Virus record (IMG/VR): IMGVR_UViG_3300003690_000022
Location: 1 to 42,677 of that record
Strand: one strand, 5' to 3'
DNA: 42,677 bases
From: a virus
A program made the translations under genes and the position numbers. Below the pieces are notes generated by a model. The model made no database searches. It was not told where the DNA came from and worked only from the letters and a program-made list of their open reading frames with translations. Shown piece by piece: positions 13,496 to 41,580 of this stretch (within the stretch, counting starts at the first letter, position 1; the number at the start of each line of letters is the position of its first letter).

Positions 13496-13704
13496 CCCCA
13501 ACCTGGGATGACCTCCGCGCTGTCGAGGGGCTTCACCTGGGGCCGGCTGCATTCCGATACCAGCGGTGTGTGAAGTGCAATGAGGAGATCGACACCCTGC
13601 TAGACGACGGCATGTGGTCGCATTACAGCGGGTGCCAGGTCAGCTTCCGAACGGCGCTAACCCCGTATAACGCTGCGGTGCTGCGGGCGTTGAGGGGGTT
13701 GTGA
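13492..13704 (+). CDS. Small Cys/His protein (70 aa)
   Basis: ATG 13492 in ATGA overlap. C-V-K-C-N-E-E-I-D and later H-Y-S-G-C make a likely C3H zinc site; the C-terminal helix reads Y-N-A-A-V-L-R-A-L-R. It directly precedes and overlaps the C5-methyltransferase gene. Confidence 0.65.
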   Translation: MTPTWDDLRAVEGLHLGPAAFRYQRCVKCNEEIDTLLDDGMWSHYSGCQVSFRTALTPYNAAVLRALRGL

Positions 13705-14885
13705 CGATGACGACGGTTGGCTCTCTCTTCTCTGGTATTGGCGGATTCGACAGGGGGCTTGAGCTCGCCGGGTGGGAAGTCCAGTGGCAGGTTGAAAATG
13801 ATAAGTTCTGTAATCAGATACTTGAACGGCACTGGCCTGGAGTAACGCGATATGGAGACATCACCGCGGTCAACACCGACCAGCTCAGCCCAGTTGACCT
13901 TCTTTGCGGAGGATTCCCCTGCCAAGACCTCTCCGTGGCTGGACGCCGTGAGGGATTGGCTGGAGAGCGGAGCTCCCTGTTCTTTGAGTTCGCCCGAATC
14001 GCAGGCGCTCTTACTCCTCGTTGGCTACTTGTCGAGAATGTCCCAGGACTCTTTAGTTCGTCCGATGGGAGAGATTTTGGCATCGTCATCTCCACACTGG
14101 CCGAACTCGGGTACGGTCTGGCGTGGCGGGTGCTTGACTCTCAGTACTTCGGAGTGGCCCAGCGCCGCCGTCGTGTGTTCATTGTCGGACATCTTGGAAA
14201 GCCATGCCCACCCGAAATACTCTTTGAGTCCGAAAGCCTGCGCGGGAATTCTCCGCCGAGCCGCCAAGCGGGGACGCAGCCTGCCTACAGCCCTAAGGGC
14301 GGCTCTGGAGAGCGTGGCTGGCCCGTTGAGTTTGAAGCAGGACTTGCTTGGGGCGACGATGTCAGCCGCCCCCTGCTCAGCAAAGCCAATAGCAGCCACG
14401 ACGACTCGCTCGAAACCTACACCATCCACAACGGACAGGGAGACCCCAACTGGGACAGGAATCGAGCCTTCGCCCTTGACACTCAACAACCAAGTGCCGT
14501 TGCCTTTGCTCAGAACCAGCGAGGTGAACTCCGGACATCAGACATTAGCCCACAGCTCACCACTGGAGGCGGAAAGCCAGGAGAGGGATACCCCGCCGTT
14601 GCCTTCAATTGGCAATCCGGAGGGGATGTCCGCCTCGGAGTCTCAGAGGAGCGAACCGATGCCCTCCACGCAGGACAAGTACCCGCTGTCGGTCCGCCGC
14701 CTGACCCCGGCGGAGTGCGAGAGGCTACAGGGGTTCCCAGACGGGTGGACACTCCTGACAGCCCCCGATACCGCGCCCTCGGGAACGCCGTGACGGTCCC
14801 TGTGGCTGAGTGGATCGGGCGCCGGATCCTGTCAGCCCACCAGGAGGCCATCCGGTACGCGACGAATGGGATACCGGCGCCATGA
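13701..14885 (+). CDS. DNA (cytosine-5) methyltransferase, motif IX out of frame
   Basis: GTG 13701 (ATG 13707 also possible). Methylates cytosine C5 in DNA, probably to evade host restriction. Motif I is L-F-S-G-I-G-G-F-D near residue 9; motif IV, with the catalytic Cys, is G-G-F-P-C-Q-D-L-S; motif VI E-N-V-P-G; motif VIII Q-R-R-R-R-V-F-I-V. The target-recognition region includes S-P-Q-L-T-T-G-G-G-K-P-G-E-G-Y, and motif X is R-Y-R-A-L-G-N-A-V. The expected motif IX (R-R-L-T-P-x-E-C-E-R-L-Q-G-F-P-D) is missing here but is encoded in the +1 frame at 14692-14756. Either two compensating one-base indels flank it, or the reading frame is recoded. Activity is therefore uncertain. The stop overlaps ATG 14882. 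Confidence 0.9.
   Translation: MTMTTVGSLFSGIGGFDRGLELAGWEVQWQVENDKFCNQILERHWPGVTRYGDITAVNTDQLSPVDLLCGGFPCQDLSVAGRREGLAGERSSLFFEFARIAGALTPRWLLVENVPGLFSSSDGRDFGIVISTLAELGYGLAWRVLDSQYFGVAQRRRRVFIVGHLGKPCPPEILFESESLRGNSPPSRQAGTQPAYSPKGGSGERGWPVEFEAGLAWGDDVSRPLLSKANSSHDDSLETYTIHNGQGDPNWDRNRAFALDTQQPSAVAFAQNQRGELRTSDISPQLTTGGGKPGEGYPAVAFNWQSGGDVRLGVSEERTDALHAGQVPAVGPPPDPGGVREATGVPRRVDTPDSPRYRALGNAVTVPVAEWIGRRILSAHQEAIRYATNGIPAP
13852..14793 (+). other. Second open frame (+1) across the C5 methyltransferase gene
   Basis: A 313-codon frame, offset +1, runs from ATG 13852 to TGA 14793. It starts near Q-L-T-F-F-A-E-D-S-P-A-K-T-S-P-W, continues with L-T-L-S-T-S-E-W-P-S and A-C-A-G-I-L-R-R-A-A-K-R-G, and ends with the methyltransferase motif IX block (14692-14756). 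I recall phage proteins in the databases with these same strings, which would be either a true overprinted gene or a recurring misannotation of this frame. No ribosome site precedes 13852. Treat as an overlapping frame of unknown status. Confidence 0.45.
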
Positions 14886-14923: not shown

Positions 14924-15436
14924 TCAGCCGAGCTTGGGTTGCCAGGTGCGAGTATCGTTGAGAGCCTTAATCTGCTCAAACAGGTTTTGGCGGGCAGCCA
15001 CATCCTCTGTGGAATGAACGCGCTTTCTAAAGGTTCTCAGTTGCCCCCAACGATCCCGTTGCTGTACATCCGCAGTGCCCGTGCCGCCTATTTTCTTCAG
15101 CTCCCGCAATTGCAAGATGATCCAAGCCTGCTCCCACTTAATTCGCAGGTGCTGCATGAGCTCCTGAGCACAAGCGGCAGCTTTTCTATCCGTAATCTGC
15201 CAAACATGCATGTCGTTACGTCTTCCTGCCTGATGCTCAACTCGCACCGTGCCGCCAAAGGTCTTAGCCAAAAGGTCCGGGACAATAGATTTCACCTGTT
15301 TGAGGCCAATGCGTTCATGGAATATCGGCACTCGTGCGTCTCCCCTCACACGCATTGCATAGGTATCCCGCTTTATGGTGAAGTACCCATCGGAATCGAG
15401 ACACCCTGATAGATAGGCCATTAGTGTAGCATCCAT
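14924..15436 (-). CDS. LAGLIDADG homing endonuclease (170 aa)
   Basis: Minus-strand gene between two plus-strand methyltransferase parts, starting at ATG 15436. Residues 6-20 read Y-L-S-G-C-L-D-S-D-G-Y-F-T-I, a LAGLIDADG helix with its catalytic acid. One motif is visible, so it would act as a homodimer of the I-CreI type or as a degenerate enzyme. The rest is helical and basic (R-V-E-H-Q, W-Q-I-T-D-R-K). It fills the gap exactly between the stranded N-terminus (ending 14923) and the new start at 15456, so it is an inserted free-standing gene. Its target is probably the methyltransferase start region. Confidence 0.85.
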   Translation of the reverse strand: MDATLMAYLSGCLDSDGYFTIKRDTYAMRVRGDARVPIFHERIGLKQVKSIVPDLLAKTFGGTVRVEHQAGRRNDMHVWQITDRKAAACAQELMQHLRIKWEQAWIILQLRELKKIGGTGTADVQQRDRWGQLRTFRKRVHSTEDVAARQNLFEQIKALNDTRTWQPKLG

Positions 15437-15455
15437 AAGTGAAGAGTACACCTCA

Positions 15456-17132
15456 ATGGGGTATAAGTCAATAAAGGTGATAGGCCAAGAGGCGACGTTT
15501 GACAACGGTTTTGTCTCTCTGTATCACGGAGATTGCAGAGATATTTTAAGCCGGCTGCCCGCCAACGCGGTGCATTGTGTCGTTACGTCGCCTCCTTGAC
15601 CTTATTGGGGCCTGCGCGACTACGGCCTGGAGCCGACCGCCTGGGGCGGCGATGCGGACCATGCCCACGAATGGGGCAGCATCGGGCCGGGCCACCATCC
15701 CGGCCAGGTGCCTGACGGCAAGGCGGTCACGGACGAGAACGCCGTCGGGCAGAACGCAGGATCAGGCCGCAACTGCGCCTGCGGCGCCTGGCTCGGCACG
15801 CTGGGCCTGGAGCCGACGCCGGAGCTTTTCGTCGAGCACCTGGTCGGCATCTTCCGGGAACTGCGGCGAGTTCTGCGGAGCGATGGGACGCTCTGGCTGA
15901 ACATGGGGGATAGCTACGCCTCGGGAGAAATAGGAAGACACGATGCTCGGGTTGAGGGTAGTGACTACGGGGCGAAGCTGAATGGCCCACGGCAACACGC
16001 ACGGCTCGCAAGTGGCCTCAAGCCCAAGGACCTGCTCCTGATGCCCGCCCGCGTCGCCCTGGCGCTCCAGGCGGACGGCTGGTGGCTCCGGTCCGACATC
16101 ATCTGGTCGAAGCCGAATCCGATGCCTGAGTCAGTGACCGACCGCTGCACCACGGCGCACGAGCATGTATTCCTGCTGACGAAATCTGAGCGGTACTACT
16201 ACGATGCCGAGGCGATTCGGGAATCCGTCGCTCCCGCAACCTTGAGCGATAAGCGATCTGGCGAGATCATCCGCCCTGAGCGGGGGTTCCCAGGGTCCGC
16301 CAGTAACGGGGCAACGAAGCTCGGTGGCAACACGGGCCGCAACAAGCGCACCGTCTGGGAGATCGCCACCGAGCCCCTTACCGGTGTCGTCGTACATGGC
16401 AGCCATCGCACAGTGTCACCAGATTGCCCAGTGCATGGTTATCTGGAATCCCCTGCTGGCGTTCCTGTTGATGGTGAACAACCAGCCGCTTCTCCGTCTG
16501 CCCACAATCGACGCACCGATGATGGTCACGTTCAAGCGCCACCAGCCTCTGTGCCTTCCACACTCGCAGGTCAGGGCGCGAGTCTTTCCGATGCGTCCGC
16601 TGCCAGAGGCCATAGCAAGCAAACGAGCAGAACGGATTTTTTGTCAGAGCAAGGTGGCTCTTTCGACGGCGGAGAATCTTCCCGCACTGAGTACACGGAG
16701 TCTCCTCAGCATTCGCATACCGTTGCCAGTGGCAGCGCCGCGAACAGAACCGAGGTGGATTCCGCTTCAAGTGAGACGGAGACTGGTCACGCGGAACAAA
16801 CTGATCCCCGCAACGCTCACACACAAAAGACAGAGTGGACATACGATGACCCTCCCGATAATTGCTCTTGTCAGTATACCGGAAAGACTAGCAAGAGGAT
16901 AGATCATTTTGCAGGATTCCCCCAGGCCCTCGTCGAGCCGTGCGTGCTGGCCGGATGTCCAGAAGGCGGGATAGTCTGCGATCCCTTCGCCGGCAGCGGC
17001 ACCGTCGGCCTGGTCGCTCAGAAGCTCGGGCGCCGCGGCGTGCTGATCGACGCCAGCGCGGACTACCTGGCCCTGGCCCGCAAGCGAATCGAGGCGGTCC
17101 CGCTACCGATGCAACTGGAGGTCACGACTTGA
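15456..17132 (+). pseudogene. Amino-methyltransferase (N4-cytosine/N6-adenine), interrupted by TGA and carrying a nested antisense HNH gene
   Basis: From ATG 15456 the frame reads D-N-G-F-V-S-L-Y-H-G-D-C-R-D-I-L ... V-V-T-S-P-P, then TGA (15597-15599), then P-Y-W-G-L-R-D-Y-G in the same frame. The family motif is T-S-P-P-Y-W-G-L-R, so six bases including a stop have been inserted in catalytic motif IV. Downstream are L-W-L-N-M-G-D-S-Y, W-S-K-P-N-P-M-P, V-W-E-I-A-T-E-P and, at the C-terminus, motif I as D-P-F-A-G-S-G-T: the beta-class order. Between T-E-P and H-F-A-G-F-P lies a roughly 160-residue Ser/Thr/His/Asp-rich insert whose antisense strand is the HNH gene at 16378-16842. Without readthrough only a 47-residue peptide and a piece restarting at GTG 15708 would form, neither a complete enzyme. 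Confidence 0.85.
16378..16842 (-). CDS. HNH homing endonuclease nested antisense in the methyltransferase gene (154 aa)
   Basis: ATG 16842 to 16378 on the minus strand, wholly inside the plus-strand methyltransferase frame, which stays open opposite it. Two N-terminal zinc knuckles of the C-E-R-C-G ... F-C-S-R-R-C type (about residues 8-37 and 50-75) precede the HNH core: H-R-C-V-D-C-G, L-V-V-H-H-Q, and N-L-V-T-L-C-D-G-C-H-V-R-R-H. All expected metal ligands and the catalytic His pair are present, so it looks active. It most likely spreads by cutting methyltransferase genes that lack the insert. There is no intron or intein around it; the host frame simply reads through its antisense as a low-complexity linker. 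Confidence 0.9.
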   Translation of the reverse strand: MSTLSFVCERCGDQFVPRDQSPSHLKRNPPRFCSRRCHWQRYANAEETPCTQCGKILRRRKSHLALTKNPFCSFACYGLWQRTHRKDSRPDLRVWKAQRLVALERDHHRCVDCGQTEKRLVVHHQQERQQGIPDNHALGNLVTLCDGCHVRRHR

Positions 17133-23297: not shown

Positions 23298-23699
23298 TCA
23301 GGCTCCTGCACCGCCCAGGAATGAGCGGTCGATATATCTTAGCGCATCGCGCACGAAAGCGTCCGCATCGGTCAGGATGTCGTCTTCGTCGATAAAGATC
23401 AAGGTGATGCCCTGCCCCGCCAGTTGAGCTCGCGCCATGCGGTCTCGGGCTATCACGGCTGCTCCCTGCTCCTGGTGAAAGAAGGTGCCCTGCACGTTAA
23501 TCGCCAGGTCAGGTGGGTTGATGAACAGGAAGTCTATTACCACGCCGCCCTTCTCAATACGCCCGCCGAAGAGGGGCGATTGAAAGGTGAAGTCCACTCC
23601 TGGCTGAAAACCCAGACGAACCAGGGTCTGGAACACGATGTATTCAGGTAGAGTCCCATCAAAGTCAGGCGGTACGCTTCGTATTTGCTGAAGGGTCAT
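23298..23699 (-). CDS. PD-(D/E)xK-like nuclease-fold protein in the tail cluster (133 aa)
   Basis: ATG 23699 overlaps the previous gene. The plan P-E-Y-I-V-F-Q-T-L-V-R-L-G-F, F-Q-S-P-L-F-G-G-R, G-G-V-V-I-D-F-L-F, then L-A-I-N-V-Q-G-T-F-F-H and I-T-L-I-F-I-D-E-D-D matches small restriction-fold nucleases (Vsr or DUF559-like). The usual Glu or Asp of the E-x-K element is Asn here (I-N-V-Q-G), so activity is uncertain. Its place between nozzle and fibre genes suggests a virion-borne or structural use of the fold. Confidence 0.6.
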   Translation of the reverse strand: MTLQQIRSVPPDFDGTLPEYIVFQTLVRLGFQPGVDFTFQSPLFGGRIEKGGVVIDFLFINPPDLAINVQGTFFHQEQGAAVIARDRMARAQLAGQGITLIFIDEDDILTDADAFVRDALRYIDRSFLGGAGA

Positions 23700-25621
23700 G
23701 GCTCAGCCACCACTACCCGGGTAACGCCCTTCTCGGTGTGCCCCGTGTTCTCGCTGGCAGTCATTTGAATGATGTCAACATAGGTGTTCCGCGTGTTGCC
23801 GCTGTCGTCACGAAAGGTGAACTCGACCAGCGAGTTCTTCCGCATCGATGCCAGCAGGTTCGCCCTCTGCTCCTTTGCGCTACGCCCCTTGTACTTCTTC
23901 TTCAGGTCCAGCTCCAGGTTCCAGCCGAAAGTGGCCGCGACCTTTTTGCGGTATTCCAATTCAATTGAGCGGATGTCGGGAGAGAGCGAGTTGTCGCTGC
24001 CGTTGGCAAGATCGGTGCGCCACCTGAAGGACCGGAACTCCAATCCAGATGGCGTAGCCACTGCGGGGAAAGAGAATACCGTCACCCCATCGCCCTCGAT
24101 GCGGTCGTCGTCAGCGTCGAAGCTGCTATCGCTGGTGTGGGCGTCCGTTAGTTGCGTCCAGGTATCGTCGTCAAAGTCGGTGCCATAGAAGACCGTGACG
24201 TGTTCGCTCGCCGACGCATCCGCTACTTCAACCAGGAGCCGGACGCCCAGCTTGTCAACCTCAGCCTGGCCAGCATCGAACCACGGGGACTCGTCTCGAG
24301 AACTGTCGGCATAACTCCGGTCAGTGATCTCGCTCGGGTTTACGATATCTACGGGCAGTGTGAAGTATTTCACCCTTCGGTTATGTCCAAACCAGAAGCG
24401 GTAGCCCGAGTAGGCATTCGAGACCAGAGCGGTGGTGATCGCCTCGGTTCCCGTTGCACTCTCGAATAGCACCTGCCACCCTAGTTCATTCCAGCCCAAG
24501 ACCAATGAGATGCCTGTAGCGATGTTTATGGCAGGCGACAGATGGCTCGACAGGCCAGCAGAGGGCCATGTATCCGAGGCCTCCGCAGTCGAGCTGCTGC
24601 TGTCCACCATGGCCACGAGGTCGTTCTGGGTCTTGTGAAGGCCCACGATTGTCCCCCGGCGGTCTGAGGGGAGCCCCTGGTCCTTGTCAGGGCCGTTCGT
24701 AGTGATGACCGCCCCGGCGCCACCGATGGCATACTTGTAAATCCCCAGGCCCGCAGGGATATAGGTGTTGCCACGGAACCGGTCGGTGTCCCTCCCGGCC
24801 TCGTCCTGGAACGGCAGGTCCATGTCGGTCTCAACGAACTGGTTGTTGCCAGCATCGTGGGCGAACAGCCCCACCTTGGTCGAGGCGTACAGGATGAAGT
24901 TTCCTATTGCGTCACGGCCTACGAAGAGGTCCTGCACATAGCCGTTGGGCAGGGGGAGCTGTGCGTCGTCAGTCCAATCCCCCGTGGGGTTGAAAGCCCA
25001 CCGGAGTTGTCCCGTGGCATCTATGCCCCAGATTCGATCATCCCAAATGGTTCCGTATTCCACGTCAACGGTAGAGGCTGTAAACGATGACCCGTCGGTG
25101 GTGTAGACATAGCCGCTGCTGTAGAAGAAGACCATGTAGACGGTGCCGCCAAGACGCCCGCTCAACGAATCCGAGACAGTCCCGGCCAGCGTGTGTAAGT
25201 TGGAACCCCATGTATCGGAGTTAAATGTGTAACTGCGGATAGAATTGCCAAAAGCTGTGTAGACAGTATTCGCCAGTTCTTGGATGGCGTCCACGGTGAT
25301 CACGCCTGGGACCCCGGAGGCGGCCGTGGTCGTCACGCGATCGGGCAAGGTGCGGTGCCCGTTCACCCGTAGGTGTGACGTGCCGTACCAGAGACGGCCC
25401 ACGTCTGTGGCGCCCTGGTGGTCCTTCTTGCCTATGCCGCCCTGGGCGTTGTCCCAGCGTATAACGGAAAGCCGCTGCCGGGAGTCCGCGGTGGTGTCAC
25501 CGATTACCACTTTCCCTGCAAATTGAGAGAACAATTGTGTCTGAACAGGCCTGGTGGTCTTATAAAACTGACCATCAATGGACACTTCTGAAGCCCTGAT
25601 GACTCGTTCGCGTGTAGTCAT
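23696..25621 (-). CDS. Tail nozzle-like / beta-propeller structural protein (641 aa)
   Basis: ATG 25621. Residues 90-400 show repeated W/Y-D/N blade-like units (L-W-Y-G-T-S-H-L-R-V-N-G-H, I-W-G-I-D-A-T-G-Q-L-R-W-A-F, I-L-Y-A-S-T-K-V-G-L-F-A) typical of beta-propellers. A beta-sandwich region follows (V-T-V-F-Y-G-T-D-F-D-D-D-T-W). In T7-like viruses a protein of this size and fold forms the tail nozzle under the connector; that assignment is inferred from size, fold hints and gene order. Confidence 0.6.
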   Translation of the reverse strand: MTTRERVIRASEVSIDGQFYKTTRPVQTQLFSQFAGKVVIGDTTADSRQRLSVIRWDNAQGGIGKKDHQGATDVGRLWYGTSHLRVNGHRTLPDRVTTTAASGVPGVITVDAIQELANTVYTAFGNSIRSYTFNSDTWGSNLHTLAGTVSDSLSGRLGGTVYMVFFYSSGYVYTTDGSSFTASTVDVEYGTIWDDRIWGIDATGQLRWAFNPTGDWTDDAQLPLPNGYVQDLFVGRDAIGNFILYASTKVGLFAHDAGNNQFVETDMDLPFQDEAGRDTDRFRGNTYIPAGLGIYKYAIGGAGAVITTNGPDKDQGLPSDRRGTIVGLHKTQNDLVAMVDSSSSTAEASDTWPSAGLSSHLSPAINIATGISLVLGWNELGWQVLFESATGTEAITTALVSNAYSGYRFWFGHNRRVKYFTLPVDIVNPSEITDRSYADSSRDESPWFDAGQAEVDKLGVRLLVEVADASASEHVTVFYGTDFDDDTWTQLTDAHTSDSSFDADDDRIEGDGVTVFSFPAVATPSGLEFRSFRWRTDLANGSDNSLSPDIRSIELEYRKKVAATFGWNLELDLKKKYKGRSAKEQRANLLASMRKNSLVEFTFRDDSGNTRNTYVDIIQMTASENTGHTEKGVTRVVVAEP

Positions 25622-32102: not shown

Positions 32103-35100
32103 TATCTCACAAATCCTGGTACACGAATTGGTCTAGTCGGTTGCGGAGGTCCAGCCGGTGCTGGCGTCGACGACGGCTGCGGGGCTTGCCCCGGCGCAGC
32201 TGGCCTGGGAGTCTGAATATTCAACCTGAGCGGCCTATCGTAGAAATTGAACCAGAGCCCAGAGCCTATCTCCCGTTGGCGCTGCAGCTCCACATCCCGT
32301 ACCGTATCTGGCATACTCAACATCCAATCATCCTTATGCGCTAGAACGTAATCCCTGATTGCACTCCCGTAGGTCTGGACAAGCCACCGGTCCAATAGGA
32401 GATTGATACGATCCCAGTCCAAGGAGGTCTTGACCGGGATGGCATCAAGCATCTTCTCTCGACGCTCGAAGTATAGATCAGAGACGGCGTCCTCTAAGCG
32501 TTGATTCTCTAGAATCCATTTCTCCAACTCTTTCACTGAGCCCGCGTCTCCTAGCGCTCTGATCGCCCACAGCACATTCGTGGCACCGCGGTGCTCTGCC
32601 CGTATCCTGCTCCGCTCCTTGTCGTACCACTTCCTGCTTGCCCCTTGAAGGCCACGAGCCATAGATTCAGCGGCAGTAGTCATCTCCGCCTCGAAATCCT
32701 CCCGTTCCTCTCGGACAACATCCAGCCGGACTTGCGTGTTCTTGTCCGCCCTGCGGTAGTTCAAGTCGTCGATTTCTTCCATAAGACGTTCTAATTCCGG
32801 TTGCTGCCGCTCCGCCCCTTTCTGCTGCGCCCGGTTTAAGTCCCCCCACTCCTTCACGGGCTGACCCTCGAGAGTTGCCTGCCCTGAATTCACGGCCCAC
32901 TGATCTCGGGCCATTGTGCGTTTCTCATATGGGCTTATCCCCCGCTCTCGTGTGCCTATCAAGTTGCCGACAAAGGTCTCAATCCCTACTGCCTGACGTT
33001 TAACTCCCGCAAGCGCCTCTAGCCCGGCGGTTGTGAATGGTTCGACATAGAATGGCATCAGGTCCTCGGAGAGCATCCGCCCCAGCCCCAGTGGGGACCG
33101 CGTGTCCTCCCCGGTGAAAGCGGCCTTGCCGGTCACGAGGTCAAACACATCGGACGTAAACGGCGAAGTCATGCCACGGAAGCTCCTGTACGCAGACAGT
33201 GCTGCCCCCTTAACGCCGTCCTCGGAGAGTCCCCGCGAGAGGTTCCCCAGAAAGCGAAGACCAGAAACCGTGACGCCCCCGACGCCGAAGACAGAGTCGC
33301 CGATCCCCACAGATAGAAAATCGCCATACCTAATGTCGTACATCCGGGGGATTCCGTTTCTGCCTTTTTTGGGATCGAGTCGGTCCCACTGACCCAACGC
33401 GGCCGCCAGCCCCGTCATGAACGCCATAGAACCAAAGAGGAAGTGCGATAAGGCCTTACGTGCCACCTGTCCCCGCAGACCCCCTTGGAAAACCGCTAGC
33501 ATAAGAGCGGCGCCAGCCCGCCGATAACGAGGCGCATACAGCAGCAGAGACCCCTCTACTGCCCTTCGAGTCGGTGTAACTCCGAGTTGCCTGGACGACA
33601 TCACGCCAAACATCTGGTCGATGCTAGTCGTCAACTCTCTATAGTCGTTCTTGTTCTTAGCCAGGACGCCAAGGGCCTTGTGCATCTCGATACGCCCCAC
33701 ATCCAGGAAGGCGTTGAAAGTGTCCGCCCCCCGACGGAATGCCGTCCCCGCTACTGGCAATCGAGATAGCACGCTGCCCCTTCCGGCAGCCACGAATTCG
33801 GAGCTGGCCAGAGGCGCAGCGCCAAACTGCACCATCTTGTCCATTACCTCTCGGGTAGCTGGCAACTGAAAATACTTGTTCGCAACGGCCGGCTGCGCTA
33901 GTGAGCGTAGGGATATCGAGGTGGCCTTGCCCCACACGAGAGGCTTGGTCAGCAACGGGATAAGCCCCTGGATTAGGAGGAATCCTGGGTCAAGCCCGGT
34001 CTCCAGCATACGGAGCACATCGTTGAAGCTGGAAATAGACTGGAGTATCTTCGGCGCCTGGTCGGTCAGGTGAAGGTTTATCTGCTCAGCCATCTCTTTC
34101 GGCATGATAAGCCCTTGGAACGCAGGCTGCCCCACCTGTGCCTCGGTAACTGGATCAGCCTGAACGCGCAGCTTAGCCTGGTTATACCCGGCGCGAGCGT
34201 CTGCTACTCGACGCCGAGAGCCGTCTGCTAAATCCTCTAGCGCGGCAATATGGGGGTCCAGTACGCGGCGGCGTGCTCTCTCGGTAACTGCCACACCTGG
34301 CGTGCGAAATGTAGGGCGTACCTCACCAAGGGGGGGTTGAACGGGCTGCTGAATACCAGTTGCCTTTTCAACGTCTGCCGCCATTTGGGGGAAGTCCCGC
34401 CTGAGCTTCGCCATACTAGGTTGTGCAGGTGTCTCACCGCGAATCACGCGTTGTAGCAAATTGCGGGCAAATTGACGGCTACGTTCTGCGTGCAGAGCCA
34501 CCTCGCGTTCCAAAGCGGTCTCTGGGAATCGCGTCTTCAACCGCTCTACAACTGTCCCCACCCCGGGCTGCTTACGAATGAATTCGGCTAGTATCGCGTC
34601 TGCCTCGGCGCGTCGACCAGCCATCAGGGTGATTCGCAACGTCTCGGTAGGGTCTGCCAAGTAGATATTCCCGCCCTGCTCTCTCCCCTGTCGCTGAGTA
34701 GGCCAGCTACGAGGCTTTGCCTGAGTCTGCTTGGCGCCGATCGCCCCCTTTATCGGGCCACGGCCAATTTCGGCCTCCTCTCCCGCCACAACTCGCTTGG
34801 TAACGACTCGCGGGAAATATCGGCCTCCCCCAAGGTCCACATCGAGCGAAATCTGTCGCGCCGCATCATCAAAGCTCGTAATCGGCTTGATCTTGACGCC
34901 CCGCTGCCGCTGCGAAGCCAAGTTCTTATCGAGGAGCGCCTTTGCCCGGCGTGCATACTCACGCTGCGCCTCATTAAGAGGGTATGCGTTGGGGAAGGTG
35001 AGCACGTCTCCAATATCCGCAGATGCGCCCTTGGGAAGCTTGACGTTTGTCACCCGCCCAAGCTTGTCTACCTTGAAGGCATGGCGGAGCTCGTCGATAG

Positions 35101-36583
35101 CGTGCATCCCGGCTACAGCAGAGGAATCGCCAGCATCACGCACGGTTAGGTAGGAAATAATGCCCTTGTGCGGCGTATCCATGGCTAGGACGGAAGGATT
35201 TACCTGATCCACAACCTGGGGGCCAACAACGGGAATCCGGTTAAGGCGCTGCCCCAGAGTTCGCGCCCAATTGTCTTTGAAATTCACGTCTAGGACCTGT
35301 TCAATCGTGGGTAGTTCAGGCAAGTACGCCTCGGTCCCGGGGGCAGCACGCTCGCTCACCGGTATCCCTGCACGAGTAGGAGGAGCGCCTTCGCCCGCTG
35401 CCCGTTTGGGGGGAGATAGGCGTATCCTCACCTCAGCAGTGCGCTTAGCACTAGCTTCGAGGATTTGCAACTCAGCCAACTCGGCCTCTGCCGCCCGAGC
35501 ATCCCTGTTAAGACCTGCCCGTTGCTGACGGAGACTAGTAATCGTATCCTGACTTTCCTTGAAAAGTCCTTCGCGTCTCACAGATTTGACAAAGACCTGA
35601 TCTATACCATCACCCCAATCGGTCAGGAATGGATTCTTCCCCTCGTGCCTAGCAATGCCTTCAACTTGAGAGTTTGATAAGCCAGTAGCCCATCTTGGCC
35701 GAACAATTCTAGCTCCCTGTGCGGCCTCAAGTTTTCCTTCAAGCTCGATAGATGCCATTGCTAAGTCATCGAGTTGTTCATTGAGGCTTGCTACCGTGTG
35801 CTGCTCCGGTGTTACAGCAGCAAGACGGTCCGCGGCCTCTTGTGGTGATACTCGAGCTGCCGGCGCTGCAGGAGCCGGAGCAACCGGAGCGGGTTCTGGT
35901 AGCGCCGCCTTGGGAGCAGTGGCAGGAGGCACGGTTGGCCGTTTCGGGAGGAGGCCACCCCTCTGAGACGTAGCCAAATCCCGTATCGACCGGCGTACAG
36001 CGGGAACAGCGGCCGCCGCCGCCTTTGTAGCAATAGGTGCCGCTGTCGCTGCTGCTCTGCCAAGCAGCGGGCCTGCGAGTGGAGCAAGCGGGGTAGCGGG
36101 CGGGACAGCCACCGCTAATTGGAGCAATGGGTTATCCAACTCTGGCCCTGTCAACGGACGTGTGCCGCCGACTACCGTCGACAGGGCACGCCCAAGACCC
36201 GCACCGGGTCTGTCAGGCGGCTGCTTCAAGCGCTCTGGGAATCGATTGAAGACTTCTTGGACTGAAGGCAGCCCACGGCCACGGACCACATCGGCGGCGG
36301 GCGTGACGAGCCTGCGCCCCAATACCTCGGCGCCTCTGACGAGCTCTGAACCTGTCCCGCCTAGCAGAAGTCGGTTCAGCAAACCAGGTTGGGGCGCCCT
36401 GGGAGGCACCGGTTTCCCGATGGGTCTGTTGAAGATCGCCGCCATGCGCTGACGCGGGTCTGGGGAAACGCGCTGGGCCGCCGATCGCTGACTACGCTCC
36501 AATGCGGCTCGGCGATCAAGGATATCCTGAGCCAACTTATCGCGCAGTCTTTTGCGGCGTTCGTCCGGCGTGTGGGTTGGCAT
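32102..36583 (-). CDS. Giant virion-associated protein (1493 aa), probable internal/ejection protein
   Basis: ATG 36583. N-terminus basic and helical, followed by Pro/Ala-rich linkers and a coiled-coil section at about 255-370. A central region follows (D-A-G-D-S-S-A-V-A-G-M-H-A-I-D-E-L-R-H, G-G-G-R-Y-F-P-R-V-V-T-K-R), then a hydrophobic helical part with L-L-Y-A-P-R-Y-R-R-A-G-A-A-L-M-L-A-V-F-Q-G-G-L-R-G and F-L-F-G-S-M-A-F-M-T-G-L-A-A-A. The C-terminus is a Pro/Gln tail. Size, the semi-hydrophobic late part and position after the portal fit inner-core or ejection proteins of short-tailed phages or 'large polyvalent protein' relatives. No protease, lytic transglycosylase or polymerase motif could be assigned. 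Confidence 0.65.
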   Translation of the reverse strand: MPTHTPDERRKRLRDKLAQDILDRRAALERSQRSAAQRVSPDPRQRMAAIFNRPIGKPVPPRAPQPGLLNRLLLGGTGSELVRGAEVLGRRLVTPAADVVRGRGLPSVQEVFNRFPERLKQPPDRPGAGLGRALSTVVGGTRPLTGPELDNPLLQLAVAVPPATPLAPLAGPLLGRAAATAAPIATKAAAAAVPAVRRSIRDLATSQRGGLLPKRPTVPPATAPKAALPEPAPVAPAPAAPAARVSPQEAADRLAAVTPEQHTVASLNEQLDDLAMASIELEGKLEAAQGARIVRPRWATGLSNSQVEGIARHEGKNPFLTDWGDGIDQVFVKSVRREGLFKESQDTITSLRQQRAGLNRDARAAEAELAELQILEASAKRTAEVRIRLSPPKRAAGEGAPPTRAGIPVSERAAPGTEAYLPELPTIEQVLDVNFKDNWARTLGQRLNRIPVVGPQVVDQVNPSVLAMDTPHKGIISYLTVRDAGDSSAVAGMHAIDELRHAFKVDKLGRVTNVKLPKGASADIGDVLTFPNAYPLNEAQREYARRAKALLDKNLASQRQRGVKIKPITSFDDAARQISLDVDLGGGRYFPRVVTKRVVAGEEAEIGRGPIKGAIGAKQTQAKPRSWPTQRQGREQGGNIYLADPTETLRITLMAGRRAEADAILAEFIRKQPGVGTVVERLKTRFPETALEREVALHAERSRQFARNLLQRVIRGETPAQPSMAKLRRDFPQMAADVEKATGIQQPVQPPLGEVRPTFRTPGVAVTERARRRVLDPHIAALEDLADGSRRRVADARAGYNQAKLRVQADPVTEAQVGQPAFQGLIMPKEMAEQINLHLTDQAPKILQSISSFNDVLRMLETGLDPGFLLIQGLIPLLTKPLVWGKATSISLRSLAQPAVANKYFQLPATREVMDKMVQFGAAPLASSEFVAAGRGSVLSRLPVAGTAFRRGADTFNAFLDVGRIEMHKALGVLAKNKNDYRELTTSIDQMFGVMSSRQLGVTPTRRAVEGSLLLYAPRYRRAGAALMLAVFQGGLRGQVARKALSHFLFGSMAFMTGLAAALGQWDRLDPKKGRNGIPRMYDIRYGDFLSVGIGDSVFGVGGVTVSGLRFLGNLSRGLSEDGVKGAALSAYRSFRGMTSPFTSDVFDLVTGKAAFTGEDTRSPLGLGRMLSEDLMPFYVEPFTTAGLEALAGVKRQAVGIETFVGNLIGTRERGISPYEKRTMARDQWAVNSGQATLEGQPVKEWGDLNRAQQKGAERQQPELERLMEEIDDLNYRRADKNTQVRLDVVREEREDFEAEMTTAAESMARGLQGASRKWYDKERSRIRAEHRGATNVLWAIRALGDAGSVKELEKWILENQRLEDAVSDLYFERREKMLDAIPVKTSLDWDRINLLLDRWLVQTYGSAIRDYVLAHKDDWMLSMPDTVRDVELQRQREIGSGLWFNFYDRPLRLNIQTPRPAAPGQAPQPSSTPAPAGPPQPTRPIRVPGFVR

Positions 36584-37954: not shown

Positions 37955-39964
37955 TTACGCTCTTGGGCCGAATAGACCTATTCTACGAAGTCGTTCTTGC
38001 GGCGTCAATGGCCCCACTGCTCCAGGTCGTGGTGAACCGGGTGGCACGTTGGGTCCGGCTTGCGGTGTTGGCGTCGGTGGCGGCGCCCCCTGAGCCGAAG
38101 GGGGCAACACGCTAGGAGAGAACCCTCCACCACCGTTCGGCGACTGGGGGAAAGGTGCCCCCCTGGCACCGTTGGTCGCCGCGGGTGGACCCGCGCCACC
38201 CGCGCCCCCCGCGCCCTGCATGGCTTGTTGCATCGCCATCTGTTGCTGCATGAAGAGCTGTTCAGCGGCACGCATGTAGATTCGGGCCATCTCGGGCCGA
38301 CCCTGGCGCAACATGGTTTCGGCCATTTCGAAGAGGCCAGCCAAGGGCAGACCCCTCTCTCCCTGCTGCTCCTTGATTTCGTCTACTATCTGGTCGGCGT
38401 CCTGGTCCTCGAAGATGTCCTCGTGAATACGTCTATCCGGATACAACGGGACCGGCCCCTTGCGAGCGATATCAGCCTGCTGGAACTTGGCTGAGTCGTC
38501 ACGGGGCAGTTGTGGGACCAACTTGAACGTGAGGTCGCCCGCGTCGCGGATCATATCGGGCGTGATCTCTTCGCTGAAATACTTCCGGTTCTGGCCTATG
38601 CCACTAAGCTGCATGGTGTCGAACTGGTTTGAGAGGTACTGGTCCTTGATCAGCCGCAAGGACTGGAGAATCGCTTTCTCAGTAGCGGTCAACGGCGCGT
38701 CCAGGGGCGTTTCCACTCCCTGCCGAAGCTGCGTAATGGCGAAGCCGGATAGTTGGAATGGTATCTCGCCGTAGACCGTATTGGGCAGCGTCCCGCGCTG
38801 AAACTCACCACCTATAAGCGCCAGTACGCTGCCAGTCTCTTTGGCGGCCTCCAGCATTGCCAAAACTTCGACATCCTCAGTATCCTTCTGCAAAGGGATA
38901 TCTATCCCAGTCTGGTGGGGATTCTCGCCCTCGAGAGTTTTGGTGCCGTCGGCTGAGTAAATCTTCAAAGCCTGCTCACGGGCGCGAGCTACCAATTCCA
39001 GCAGGATCGACATGATCAGGTTGTTCTTGTCGTTGATACCTCTGATCTTCTTCAGCACGGACTCGCCAAAATCCGCCTTGATGCTGACGATAGAGCCGTC
39101 GTCCCCTACGCCACCTGTGCTGGTACCGTGCCCGCCCTGGAGTGGCGGGGCAGAGCCTACGGTGAGATACACAATTGGGGTTCGCGGGCTGCCGTGGGGC
39201 GTAGCCGGTTTCAGGAAGCGTGGACCCTTGCGAATATCATCGAATAAGTCCTCTGTCAAGACGTAATTGTCGCACTCGTCGTAGAAGTCGTGGACTGTAA
39301 TGCCCGCGTTCTCGTTTTCGCTATCTTCGTCCTGTGGAATCGTGACGCCGTATTTGGTCTTGATCTGAGCGCGAGTCATTTTTATAGAGTAGGCTGCCCA
39401 CACTAAACCCTTATCACCGAGCTCGAACGAGACATGAGAAGGGTCCCACGGCATGATATCGGGGAAGGTTGCAGTCTTCGAATCGCCGTCCTCGTCCTCG
39501 CCGTCTTTCTCTTTCACCAGCAGGGCACGCCCCATTACGGGGCCACCGCGGACACAAGAATAGAATCCCCACTGGTCCTGAATCGGGGGCAGACCCTTGT
39601 TGTCCTGCTGCTCGGCCACGTTGTTCAGAATACCGACATAGAACCGCTCGGCTGCATCGTCGGTCTCCCGATCGTCACGCCGGTTGTTCTGCTGCGGATT
39701 AGGGCCGGGGTTCTTAATAACGTGGGGAATCTTGACAATCGAGATGGCTTTGGCGATAAAGCTGATGAGCTTGTCCACGAACACGGCCGGCGCGTTAGAA
39801 GTGTAGTGGCGGTAGTCGTCGCCCTCACCCTTGGGCTCTTGGAACTCGTCCAGCCGATACGAGCTGTAGTCCCTATCGTAGCGATCGATGAGAACACGGG
39901 GAATCTTATGGTCCTCAATCAGCTTGAGGATGTCTGCGCGGGTGCGTTTCTTACGTTCCGCCAT
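37955..39964 (-). CDS. Portal protein (669 aa)
   Basis: ATG 39964. Follows the large terminase in the usual order. Typical portal elements: N-terminal helices (A-D-I-L-K-L-I-E-D-H-K), a wing region with F-Y-D-E-C-D-N-Y, strand P-R-T-P-I-V-Y-L-T-V-G-S, long stem helices (N-N-L-I-M-S-I-L-L-E-L-V-A-R-A-R-E-Q-A-L) and Y-G-E-I-P-F-Q-L-S-G-F-A-I-T-Q-L. The C-terminal 100 residues form a Gln/Met then Gly/Pro-rich tail, longer than most T7-type portals (about 530). It forms the dodecameric channel for packaging and ejection. Confidence 0.85.
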   Translation of the reverse strand: MAERKKRTRADILKLIEDHKIPRVLIDRYDRDYSSYRLDEFQEPKGEGDDYRHYTSNAPAVFVDKLISFIAKAISIVKIPHVIKNPGPNPQQNNRRDDRETDDAAERFYVGILNNVAEQQDNKGLPPIQDQWGFYSCVRGGPVMGRALLVKEKDGEDEDGDSKTATFPDIMPWDPSHVSFELGDKGLVWAAYSIKMTRAQIKTKYGVTIPQDEDSENENAGITVHDFYDECDNYVLTEDLFDDIRKGPRFLKPATPHGSPRTPIVYLTVGSAPPLQGGHGTSTGGVGDDGSIVSIKADFGESVLKKIRGINDKNNLIMSILLELVARAREQALKIYSADGTKTLEGENPHQTGIDIPLQKDTEDVEVLAMLEAAKETGSVLALIGGEFQRGTLPNTVYGEIPFQLSGFAITQLRQGVETPLDAPLTATEKAILQSLRLIKDQYLSNQFDTMQLSGIGQNRKYFSEEITPDMIRDAGDLTFKLVPQLPRDDSAKFQQADIARKGPVPLYPDRRIHEDIFEDQDADQIVDEIKEQQGERGLPLAGLFEMAETMLRQGRPEMARIYMRAAEQLFMQQQMAMQQAMQGAGGAGGAGPPAATNGARGAPFPQSPNGGGGFSPSVLPPSAQGAPPPTPTPQAGPNVPPGSPRPGAVGPLTPQERLRRIGLFGPRA

Positions 39965-40127
39965 GAAAGCGCTTCCAAATACGTGCCCAGATGGGGCTAC
40001 GAGGCCATGCGTCGAACGCCCAGCCGTAGTAGATGGCCTCGATATACGGCTTAGTCACCTTATGCCGCAATATCTGCACGGCGAATCCAGAGAGCTGAAA
40101 TCCCAATTCTTGATCAGCGGCCATCAT
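39951..40127 (-). CDS. Small protein between large terminase and portal (58 aa)
   Basis: ATGATG at 40127/40124, overlapping the terminase end by 14 bases and the portal start by 14. Ends in TAA at 39951. Sequence G-F-Q-L-S-G-F-A-V-Q-I-L-R-H-K is strikingly like the portal segment P-F-Q-L-S-G-F-A-I-T-Q-L-R-Q-G, followed by an aromatic, basic tail (I-Y-Y-G-W, W-A-R-I-W-K-R). Possibly a fragment duplicated from a portal gene that became a small partner protein. Function unknown. Confidence 0.65.
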   Translation of the reverse strand: MMAADQELGFQLSGFAVQILRHKVTKPYIEAIYYGWAFDAWPRSPIWARIWKRFHGGT

Positions 40128-41580
40128 GCAACCCCGGCGGTCCAGCTACGACAGCCCGACGGCCGTTCCGTCGGTGGACCTTGATTGTACTACTGCCCTG
40201 CCTCTGAGTATAGCCGAATCTGTCGATCAATCCGTAAATCACCGCCTTGATCGCGTCGTTATTGTTGTCCTTGGGGTTTTTGCCGATCACGTTCCCCTCA
40301 CGGTCGGTCCCCCACCGATAAGCCCTGAGCTGGCCGTCGTCGGGGTTCGGAGCAGCGCCGAATTCAGAGATCAGCCCCTCGCACCTGGGGTCGATGATGA
40401 ACTTCGGGCCGTGGGTGATGGGGTCCATCTTCAGCATCGTCTTCATGCGATCGGTGCCTGCCCCGATGGGGATCGGCTCCTTGCTGTGATTCATATAGAG
40501 CCGGGCTGGTTCGGCAACCCATATCTCCTGCAGGGGGCGCTGACCATGGTGCTGCGCAACGTAACGGTCCGCCACCCCACGGATATCCTTCTCTTTCCAC
40601 CAGTCGCGGTCCAGGCAGATTTCGATGATATCCTCGGTAGTCTTGCCTTTGACGTAGATTTCGTCGAAGATACGGACCTGGCCGCTGATAACGTTTGCGA
40701 TCTCGACGGCGTAGTAGCTGCCGGAGTAGCCCGGGTCTACCCAGATGTACACCCGCTCGCCTGGGACGCGCTCACACTGCCGAACGTGGACGTCAGCGCG
40801 GAATTCAGGGAAAACGAGCCCCTTGGGAGGGACGGGGATGCCCTCGATGCGCTCGCTGACGAACTGGTCCGAGGAATTAGCTATGATCTCGACTATTTTC
40901 GGGTCGTTGCGCCCGCCGGGGAAGACAGTGCTGTTCGCATACGTCGGGAGCCGGAAACTCTTCCGATTGTTAGCGCCGCTGGCCCATTGCGGCGCCAAAG
41001 AGGGGAACCAACCGACGCTTTCCTCCATCGTGCCGATAAAAAGCACCCAGCCGTCCTTCTCAAGTACCCGCTCCTGGCACCTCTCGAGAACTACCACGTC
41101 CTGCTGGCCTGCTTCGCAGACGATTATCCCGTGAGGAGGGTCCTGGGACATCTTCGTAATATCGCTAGAGCTTTTCGTTTCTATCCTGAGGCGTGGGTGG
41201 CGGTCCTTCGGCAGTTTGAGTTCGATATGACCAGGATCGACTCTTTTGGTCCAGTCCAAGTCAGGCTTTTTGAACCCAAGCAACTGCAGGTCGTCGTTGA
41301 TGTAGAAGAATTCTCGCCGAGTCTCGCTGTAGGACTTCCCGATCAGCCAGTACAGGAACGGATCACCGACCCCATCCCCGTCTTCTGGGTGTTTCTCCTG
41401 GTCCGCCAGCCAGTTCTTCATCCACTTCGCCTTTGCGACCATAGACTTACCGCCACGTCCGCCACCGGTAACGAGGATAAACCGGTGTGGAGCGTCTAAG
41501 ATTGCCTGCTGGTACGTCGAGTTAGGCGCAAAGCCTACTTTGTCGAAGAGGATGGAGATATTGGTATCAACGGCAAGCAT
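40114..41580 (-). CDS. Terminase large subunit (488 aa)
   Basis: ATG 41580 overlaps the previous stop (TAATG). ATPase: Walker A G-G-G-R-G-G-K-S near residues 39-46, a Walker B-like strand G-I-I-V-C-E-A-G-Q (Cys in place of the usual Asp before the catalytic Glu) and coupling motif L-F-I-G-T-M-E. Nuclease: I-W-V-D-P-G-Y-S-G-S, G-V-A-D-R-Y, and a C-terminal N-N-D-A-I-K-A-V-I-Y supply the RNaseH-fold acids. It cuts concatemers and drives DNA into the prohead through the portal encoded next to it. Confidence 0.92.
   Translation of the reverse strand: MLAVDTNISILFDKVGFAPNSTYQQAILDAPHRFILVTGGGRGGKSMVAKAKWMKNWLADQEKHPEDGDGVGDPFLYWLIGKSYSETRREFFYINDDLQLLGFKKPDLDWTKRVDPGHIELKLPKDRHPRLRIETKSSSDITKMSQDPPHGIIVCEAGQQDVVVLERCQERVLEKDGWVLFIGTMEESVGWFPSLAPQWASGANNRKSFRLPTYANSTVFPGGRNDPKIVEIIANSSDQFVSERIEGIPVPPKGLVFPEFRADVHVRQCERVPGERVYIWVDPGYSGSYYAVEIANVISGQVRIFDEIYVKGKTTEDIIEICLDRDWWKEKDIRGVADRYVAQHHGQRPLQEIWVAEPARLYMNHSKEPIPIGAGTDRMKTMLKMDPITHGPKFIIDPRCEGLISEFGAAPNPDDGQLRAYRWGTDREGNVIGKNPKDNNNDAIKAVIYGLIDRFGYTQRQGSSTIKVHRRNGRRAVVAGPPGLHDGR

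Follow-up and report, generated by a model that had tools for sequence, protein, structure and literature searches.

The window analysed here, a whole virus record of 42.7 kb, contains a C5-cytosine methyltransferase gene with a second gene nested in its +1 frame, and we consider it quite likely, judging from sequence comparisons, that the two code for a two-polypeptide enzyme with its motifs divided as in M.EcoHK31I. Comparison of homologues showed dual coding, with both frames under selection at the protein level and the +1 frame dominating in a conserved core and in motif IX; expression, heterodimer formation, activity and biological role are what we infer.

Frame 0 of the gene (61% GC) is open at 13701-14885 with an ATG at 13707, and its product matches PF00145 with an E value of 3.6e-57, as well as TIGR00675 (dcm) and phrog_116/363. 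This chain has motifs I-VIII, the recognition region (TRD) and motif X. Among the PF00145 hallmarks I, IV (PCQ), VI (ENV), VIII and X were all found in it, and motif IX is absent from it and present in the +1 frame only. A sequence-only reading of this DNA had already placed motifs I-VIII and X in frame 0, in agreement with these matches, together with the start of the recognition domain, which is right as far as it goes: the whole recognition region reads in frame 0, not its start alone. The same reading assigned motif IX to the +1 frame, correctly, at 14692-14756, an interval a few bases too wide (Table 1), and the open +1 frame of 313 codons that it reported is the small-chain ORF. The product of this ORF has an overlap region, a conserved helical core, a linker and a C-terminal motif IX, and it matches PF00145 with an E value of 2e-4, the match being confined to the motif IX end. 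In the window alone the lack of +1 stops from the overlap core to motif IX had a P of 0.24 by synonymous resampling, so the openness of its own +1 frame is weak evidence when taken alone, and it is the comparative sequence data that we regard as decisive for dual coding.

Table 1 Features of the methyltransferase locus, in positions of the window
Feature	Position	Strand	Remarks
Frame 0 ORF, large chain ('alpha'), C5-cytosine methyltransferase	13707-14885	+	Translation, PF00145, TIGR00675 dcm, phrog_116/363
+1 ORF, small chain ('beta')	13852-14793	+	313 codons/aa; conserved, stop-free in homologues
GGAG, possible Shine-Dalgarno	13839-13842	+	9 nt before beta ATG (13852)
Motif IV GGFPCQ (catalytic Cys), frame 0	13908-13925	+	+1 reading EDSPAK
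Motif VIII QRRRRVF, frame 0	14160-14180	+	
Conserved +1 core (LSDILE..PKYSLSPKACAGILRRAAKRGRSLP..L..AL..VAG)	14173-14322	+	+1 selection dominant
Recognition region (TRD), frame 0	14340-14690	+	+1 kept open here in window-type loci
Motif IX RRLTPAECERLQGFPD in +1	14695-14742	+	Frame 0 reading DPGGVREATGVPRRVD
Motif X RYRALGNAV, frame 0	14766-14792	+	

The neighbourhood of the gene includes a second methyltransferase ORF at 15708-17129 (+; PF01555 N6_N4_Mtase, E 2.6e-38), whose domain extends across residues 37-458 owing to a long low-complexity insertion. Between the two methylase genes and on the opposite strand sits a homing-endonuclease-like ORF at 14927-15505 (-; phrog_5046 HNH endonuclease, E 2e-11). 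Elsewhere in the window there is a terminase match at 40117-41580, and three long ORFs (32105-36583, 37958-39964 and 23699-25621, -) gave no PHROG or Pfam match.

The sample picked by frame 0 consisted of 80 IMG/VR loci chosen by frame 0 similarity alone plus a few other loci and phage records; 81 phage methylase genes, nearly all chosen by frame 0 alone, entered the tests of stops and starts, and most of the sequences behind the statistics are metagenomic contigs. Frame 0 was aligned by codon for the comparison of conservation, and the expected numbers of stops were obtained by resampling the synonymous codons of frame 0, keeping its protein and codon use. Upstream of codon 62 no avoidance of +1 stops was seen (135 against 114 expected, and 51 against 43). 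In codons 63-102 we counted 18 where 97 were expected, in codons 103-162 a single one against 148 and in codons 163-204 none against 44, and the +2 frame of the 81 loci had no stop avoidance of comparable size. A +1 start preceded by a Shine-Dalgarno was found near codons 44-68 in 59 of the 81 loci, where 29.2 +- 4.0 were expected; the +2 frame had no such excess. The avoidance of stops and the excess of starts together indicate a separate +1 gene that starts near codon 50-60 of the methylase. Past the core, 50 ordinary loci had 306 +1 stops versus 238 expected, and in most loci the predicted +1 gene ends soon after the core.

The entropies at frame-0 positions 1/2/3 were 1.02/0.88/1.73 bits in codons 1-50 and 1.59/1.11/0.97 bits in the core past motif VIII, the latter being the pattern of +1 coding. 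Pairwise identity past motif VIII was 0.52 in +1 versus 0.25 in frame 0, and the +1 residues L.S.KA..GILRRAEKRGK.LP..L..AL that follow this motif were mostly conserved at 0.85-0.97, with 0.2-0.5 for frame 0 at the same place. The sequence-only reading had proposed a check for constraint in frame 0 matching the +1 residues, which was run and came out positive, and its counter-case, homologues with a +1 frame full of stops, was answered by 0-1 stops per segment versus 44-148 expected. It had left three readings side by side (a pair of compensating indels, recoding or genuine overprinting), and the comparative stop, start and selection data favour the last.

Hundreds of phages and prophages carry relatives of the two-frame gene. 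When the +1 core alone was used for a scan, at least 80 loci in bacterial genomes, from many phyla, and at least 80 viral loci were recovered. Of the 160 matches listed, 157 combine the core with a methylase read over it in the expected frame; of the other three, a frame break upstream affects two and the contig end truncates one. All 160 overlap a methylase frame and none is a free-standing copy. The core is also present in the P1-like Dmt and in Omega-type mycobacteriophages. The nearest thing to a standalone +1 protein is found in Mycobacterium phage Thibault (L253, 1465-1710), where the core survives as the annotated gp104 of 81 aa, the frame-0 part with motifs IV-VIII having been lost next to an HNH gene. 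The +1 protein is already in protein databases, phrog_16143 matching 59 of 62 family members, so the strings that the sequence-only reading had connected with annotated phage proteins are real and conserved, as the annotation of gp104 also shows. Both phrog_16143 and phrog_1008 are annotated as 'DNA methyltransferase', a label presumably borrowed from the overlapping gene. In the open-licence literature we found no publication treating phrog_16143, phrog_1008 or Thibault gp104 as overprinted, and nothing on methylase overprinting. A negative example is the methylase of the E. coli plasmid NZ_CP070028, with motif IX in frame 0 and a +1 frame full of stops. After adding loci from a scan for the frame-0 reading around motif X, the collection contained 277 non-redundant loci, of which 190 have motif IX in frame 0 with the +1 gene still there and 20 are of the window type, with motif IX only in +1 and within an intact frame-0 ORF. 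This wide distribution of the +1 gene, usually without motif IX, and the match of the motif division to M.EcoHK31I are points that go beyond the sequence-only reading.

Further parts of the methylase were found in the +1 ORF. Frame 0 stops early in L058, L111 and L251, and their motif IX comes after this point in the +1 ORF that also has the core; in L058 this ORF has motif X too. TRD-like modules lie in the +1 ORF ahead of the core in 18 of 259 loci (L043, L046, L058, L085, L021, L288, L297 and L273 among them), the best with an E value of 9e-17 (L046) and the weakest near the threshold; the module of L085 shares 87% identity with the one that L016 has in frame 0. Where their position was examined, these modules sit between methylase motifs III and IV. 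Motif I was found in +1 in 5 of 19 window-type loci versus none of 128 with IX in frame 0, these being the ones whose motif I was found stop-free, and in an identically selected set the figures were 5 of 12 versus 0 of 22 (P 0.003). In L259, L264, L267, L292 and L299 motif I, and in most of them also III, is in +1 and motifs IV-VIII are in frame 0. Each frame has its own plausible start in L292, L264 and L259, that of frame 0 with a Shine-Dalgarno, and the frame-0 chain of L292 can begin just before motif IV, at GGAGGACATAAAGGA-ATG. L299 has a stop codon in its frame-0 motif IV and its methylase may be dead. In addition, three loci (L036 5431-6773, L037 3136-3961 and L053 2966-4484) have tandem C-terminal segments after one N-terminal methylase half, carrying motif IX and/or X in differing frames, an arrangement in which several recognition chains may be swapped on a single catalytic chain.

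A real phage protein unrelated to methylation, for example one of counter-defence, with motif IX there by accident, is a rather improbable reading of the +1 frame, even though the +1 product lacks motif IX in most loci, its core resembles no functionally characterised family or fold and Thibault keeps it despite the loss of motifs IV-VIII. Structure searches with the core gave nothing informative (best PDB E 2.7), and its only good matches among viral structures were products of such overlaps. Such a protein would have to stay always with a methylase, as among the 160 matches listed, to have become linked in several lineages with motif IX, with IX-X, with TRD-like modules or with motif I, and to conserve motif IX as a motif IX.

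The reading as nested genes for two chains of one enzyme can be followed in the window-type loci, in which the +1 ORF is unbroken from the core to motif IX in 20 of 20. In the seven of them first found there are no +1 stops from core to IX versus 8.8 expected, this openness not being significant in single loci one by one. In 18 window-type loci the IX block had entropies of 0.36/0.29/1.18 bits at +1 positions 1/2/3 and an identity of 85% in +1 versus 44% in frame 0, a selection in +1 that points to translation of motif IX in that frame. Pairs of window-type loci were compared for the frame under selection, and in five of six it changed from one part of the gene to the next: frame 0 in motifs I-VIII, then +1 in the core, frame 0 again (weakly) in the TRD, +1 in IX and frame 0 in X. 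The motif IX differences between L031 and L311 fall at frame-0 positions 1/2/3 as 5/0/0; the pair L290/L266 shows no frame preference in IX (13/14/13), perhaps an alignment fault. A quick tree of motifs I-VIII, which left out six window-type rows lacking a frame-0 motif I, required six state changes, at least two of them forced by well-supported branches, suggesting that motif IX probably entered the +1 frame more than once, or returned.

Programmed frameshifting, with ribosomes entering +1 ahead of motif IX and returning to frame 0 ahead of motif X, would unite motifs I-VIII, the TRD, IX and X in one complete chain and would fit the near normal spacing of IX and X in several loci. We consider it very unlikely, as two opposite shifts about 60-90 nt apart would be required and several facts would be left unexplained: the openness and conservation of +1 from motif IV through the core, the +1 starts with Shine-Dalgarno, the presence of the +1 gene where IX sits in frame 0 and the separate starts of L292, L264 and L259. 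The recoding offered by the sequence-only reading is disfavoured by the excess of such starts and by the same three loci. A pair of compensating indels flanking motif IX, be it from faulty sequencing or assembly or from decay of the gene, would put this motif out of frame with its neighbours as observed. Error and decay can practically be dismissed, since the identical frame relation in 20 non-redundant contigs excludes sequencing indels as the cause and motif IX is selected in +1 and motif X in frame 0. Two compensating indels may well be the evolutionary origin of this frame state.

The same architecture was found in a distant lineage by a pattern search for LNPxFVAEMMGFP, which we take to be a motif-IX-like string typical of Bacteroidota methylases. 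The search gave 120 stretches, and the 80 analysed (L356-L435) are C5-methyltransferase genes with a nested +1 ORF ending in this string. Motif IV lies one frame before the string, and the ORF of the string is open back to motif IV, in 72 of the 80; motif X was also seen in 64 of these 72, sharing the frame of motif IV. In 71 non-redundant loci (48% GC) there were no +1 stops versus 297 +- 15 expected; within the string, which the search pattern fixed, codon entropy is biased. That the +1 reading passively shadows the conservation of frame 0 and a GC-rich composition, as the GC content of the window gene and the non-significant openness of its own TRD region could suggest, is hardly conceivable with 1 and 0 stops where resampling that keeps the frame-0 protein and codon use expects 148 and 44, with no such avoidance in +2, with a core more conserved in +1 than in frame 0 and with complete openness also in this lineage of lower GC.

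In the two-chain enzyme that we propose, frame 0 would give the large chain, with motifs I-VIII, the recognition region and motif X, and the +1 ORF would be translated separately from the ATG at 13852, with GGAG 9 nt upstream, to give the small one. From its N-terminus onwards the small chain would have a poorly folded part, then a basic helical hairpin that is conserved, a linker and, at its end, motif IX. By pairing, it would set motif IX beside the recognition domain of the large chain, and both would form one active solitary phage methyltransferase, its role most likely being protection against host restriction. Modelled alone, the small chain was mostly unfolded outside the hairpin (residues 127-156, pLDDT about 94-96) and the motif IX helix (residues 286-293, pLDDT about 83-86), as expected of a chain that would depend on a partner. 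For the wider family with motif IX in frame 0 we prefer, with lower confidence, an accessory subunit of the same enzyme, because the +1 product was not found without a methylase and has repeatedly acquired methylase parts; its main function may be something else, since 190 of the 277 loci keep IX in frame 0. On balance we lean towards the view that a large share of the C5-methyltransferase genes of phages and prophages are two-in-one genes, with the +1 product, always encoded over the methylase, as second subunit and with IX, IX-X, I-III and recognition modules having moved repeatedly from one frame to the other.

Long overprinted genes on the same strand have seldom been demonstrated in DNA phages, and here there are several independent statistical signals, for a +1 gene that spans phages and prophages of many bacterial phyla, P1-like phages included. 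Many entries annotated as 'hypothetical protein' or 'DNA methyltransferase' could be the second subunit. The dependence of a methylase on a protein encoded inside its own gene becomes a cleanly testable question.

M.EcoHK31I (YGGCCR) is a bacterial restriction-modification enzyme whose small gene is, we assume, nested within the large one in another frame, and M.EaeI is presumably another two-polypeptide C5-methyltransferase close to the window system. We sought the M.EcoHK31I sequence in phages, plasmids and 295 genomes of one family and did not find it; three candidate loci turned out to be another methylase with IX in frame 0. Two-chain C5-methyltransferases are a known exception to the rule of motif IX in the same chain, the large subunit of M.EcoHK31I having motifs I-VIII, the TRD and X and the small one motif IX only (PMC3404938). 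Both proteins of M.EcoHK31I are needed for methylation, going by the title of Lee et al. 1995 as cited in PMC3404938. The window large chain likewise has I-VIII, the TRD and X and lacks IX, and a separate ORF carries IX, for which selection and stop avoidance in +1 suggest translation; the assignment is made by motif division and not by sequence comparison of the small chains. Unlike M.EcoHK31I, the window gene belongs to a phage and none of its neighbours was recognised as a restriction gene, and the conserved +1 core, the +1 TRD-like modules and the moves of motif I are not described for that enzyme in open-licence papers. The P1-like Dmt (RCS47, L087) has the same +1 core under its C5-methyltransferase part, but with motif IX in frame 0 and no +1 product annotated. 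M.AquI is a natural two-chain C5-methyltransferase with motifs IX and X both on the small chain (PMC3404938); the window system resembles it in having the parts of one enzyme on two polypeptides and differs in that motif X stays on the large chain. Phage loci such as L064 and L037, in which IX and X share an ORF of their own, are closer to M.AquI. The phage loci make up a natural series of two-chain methylases that are split at different places.
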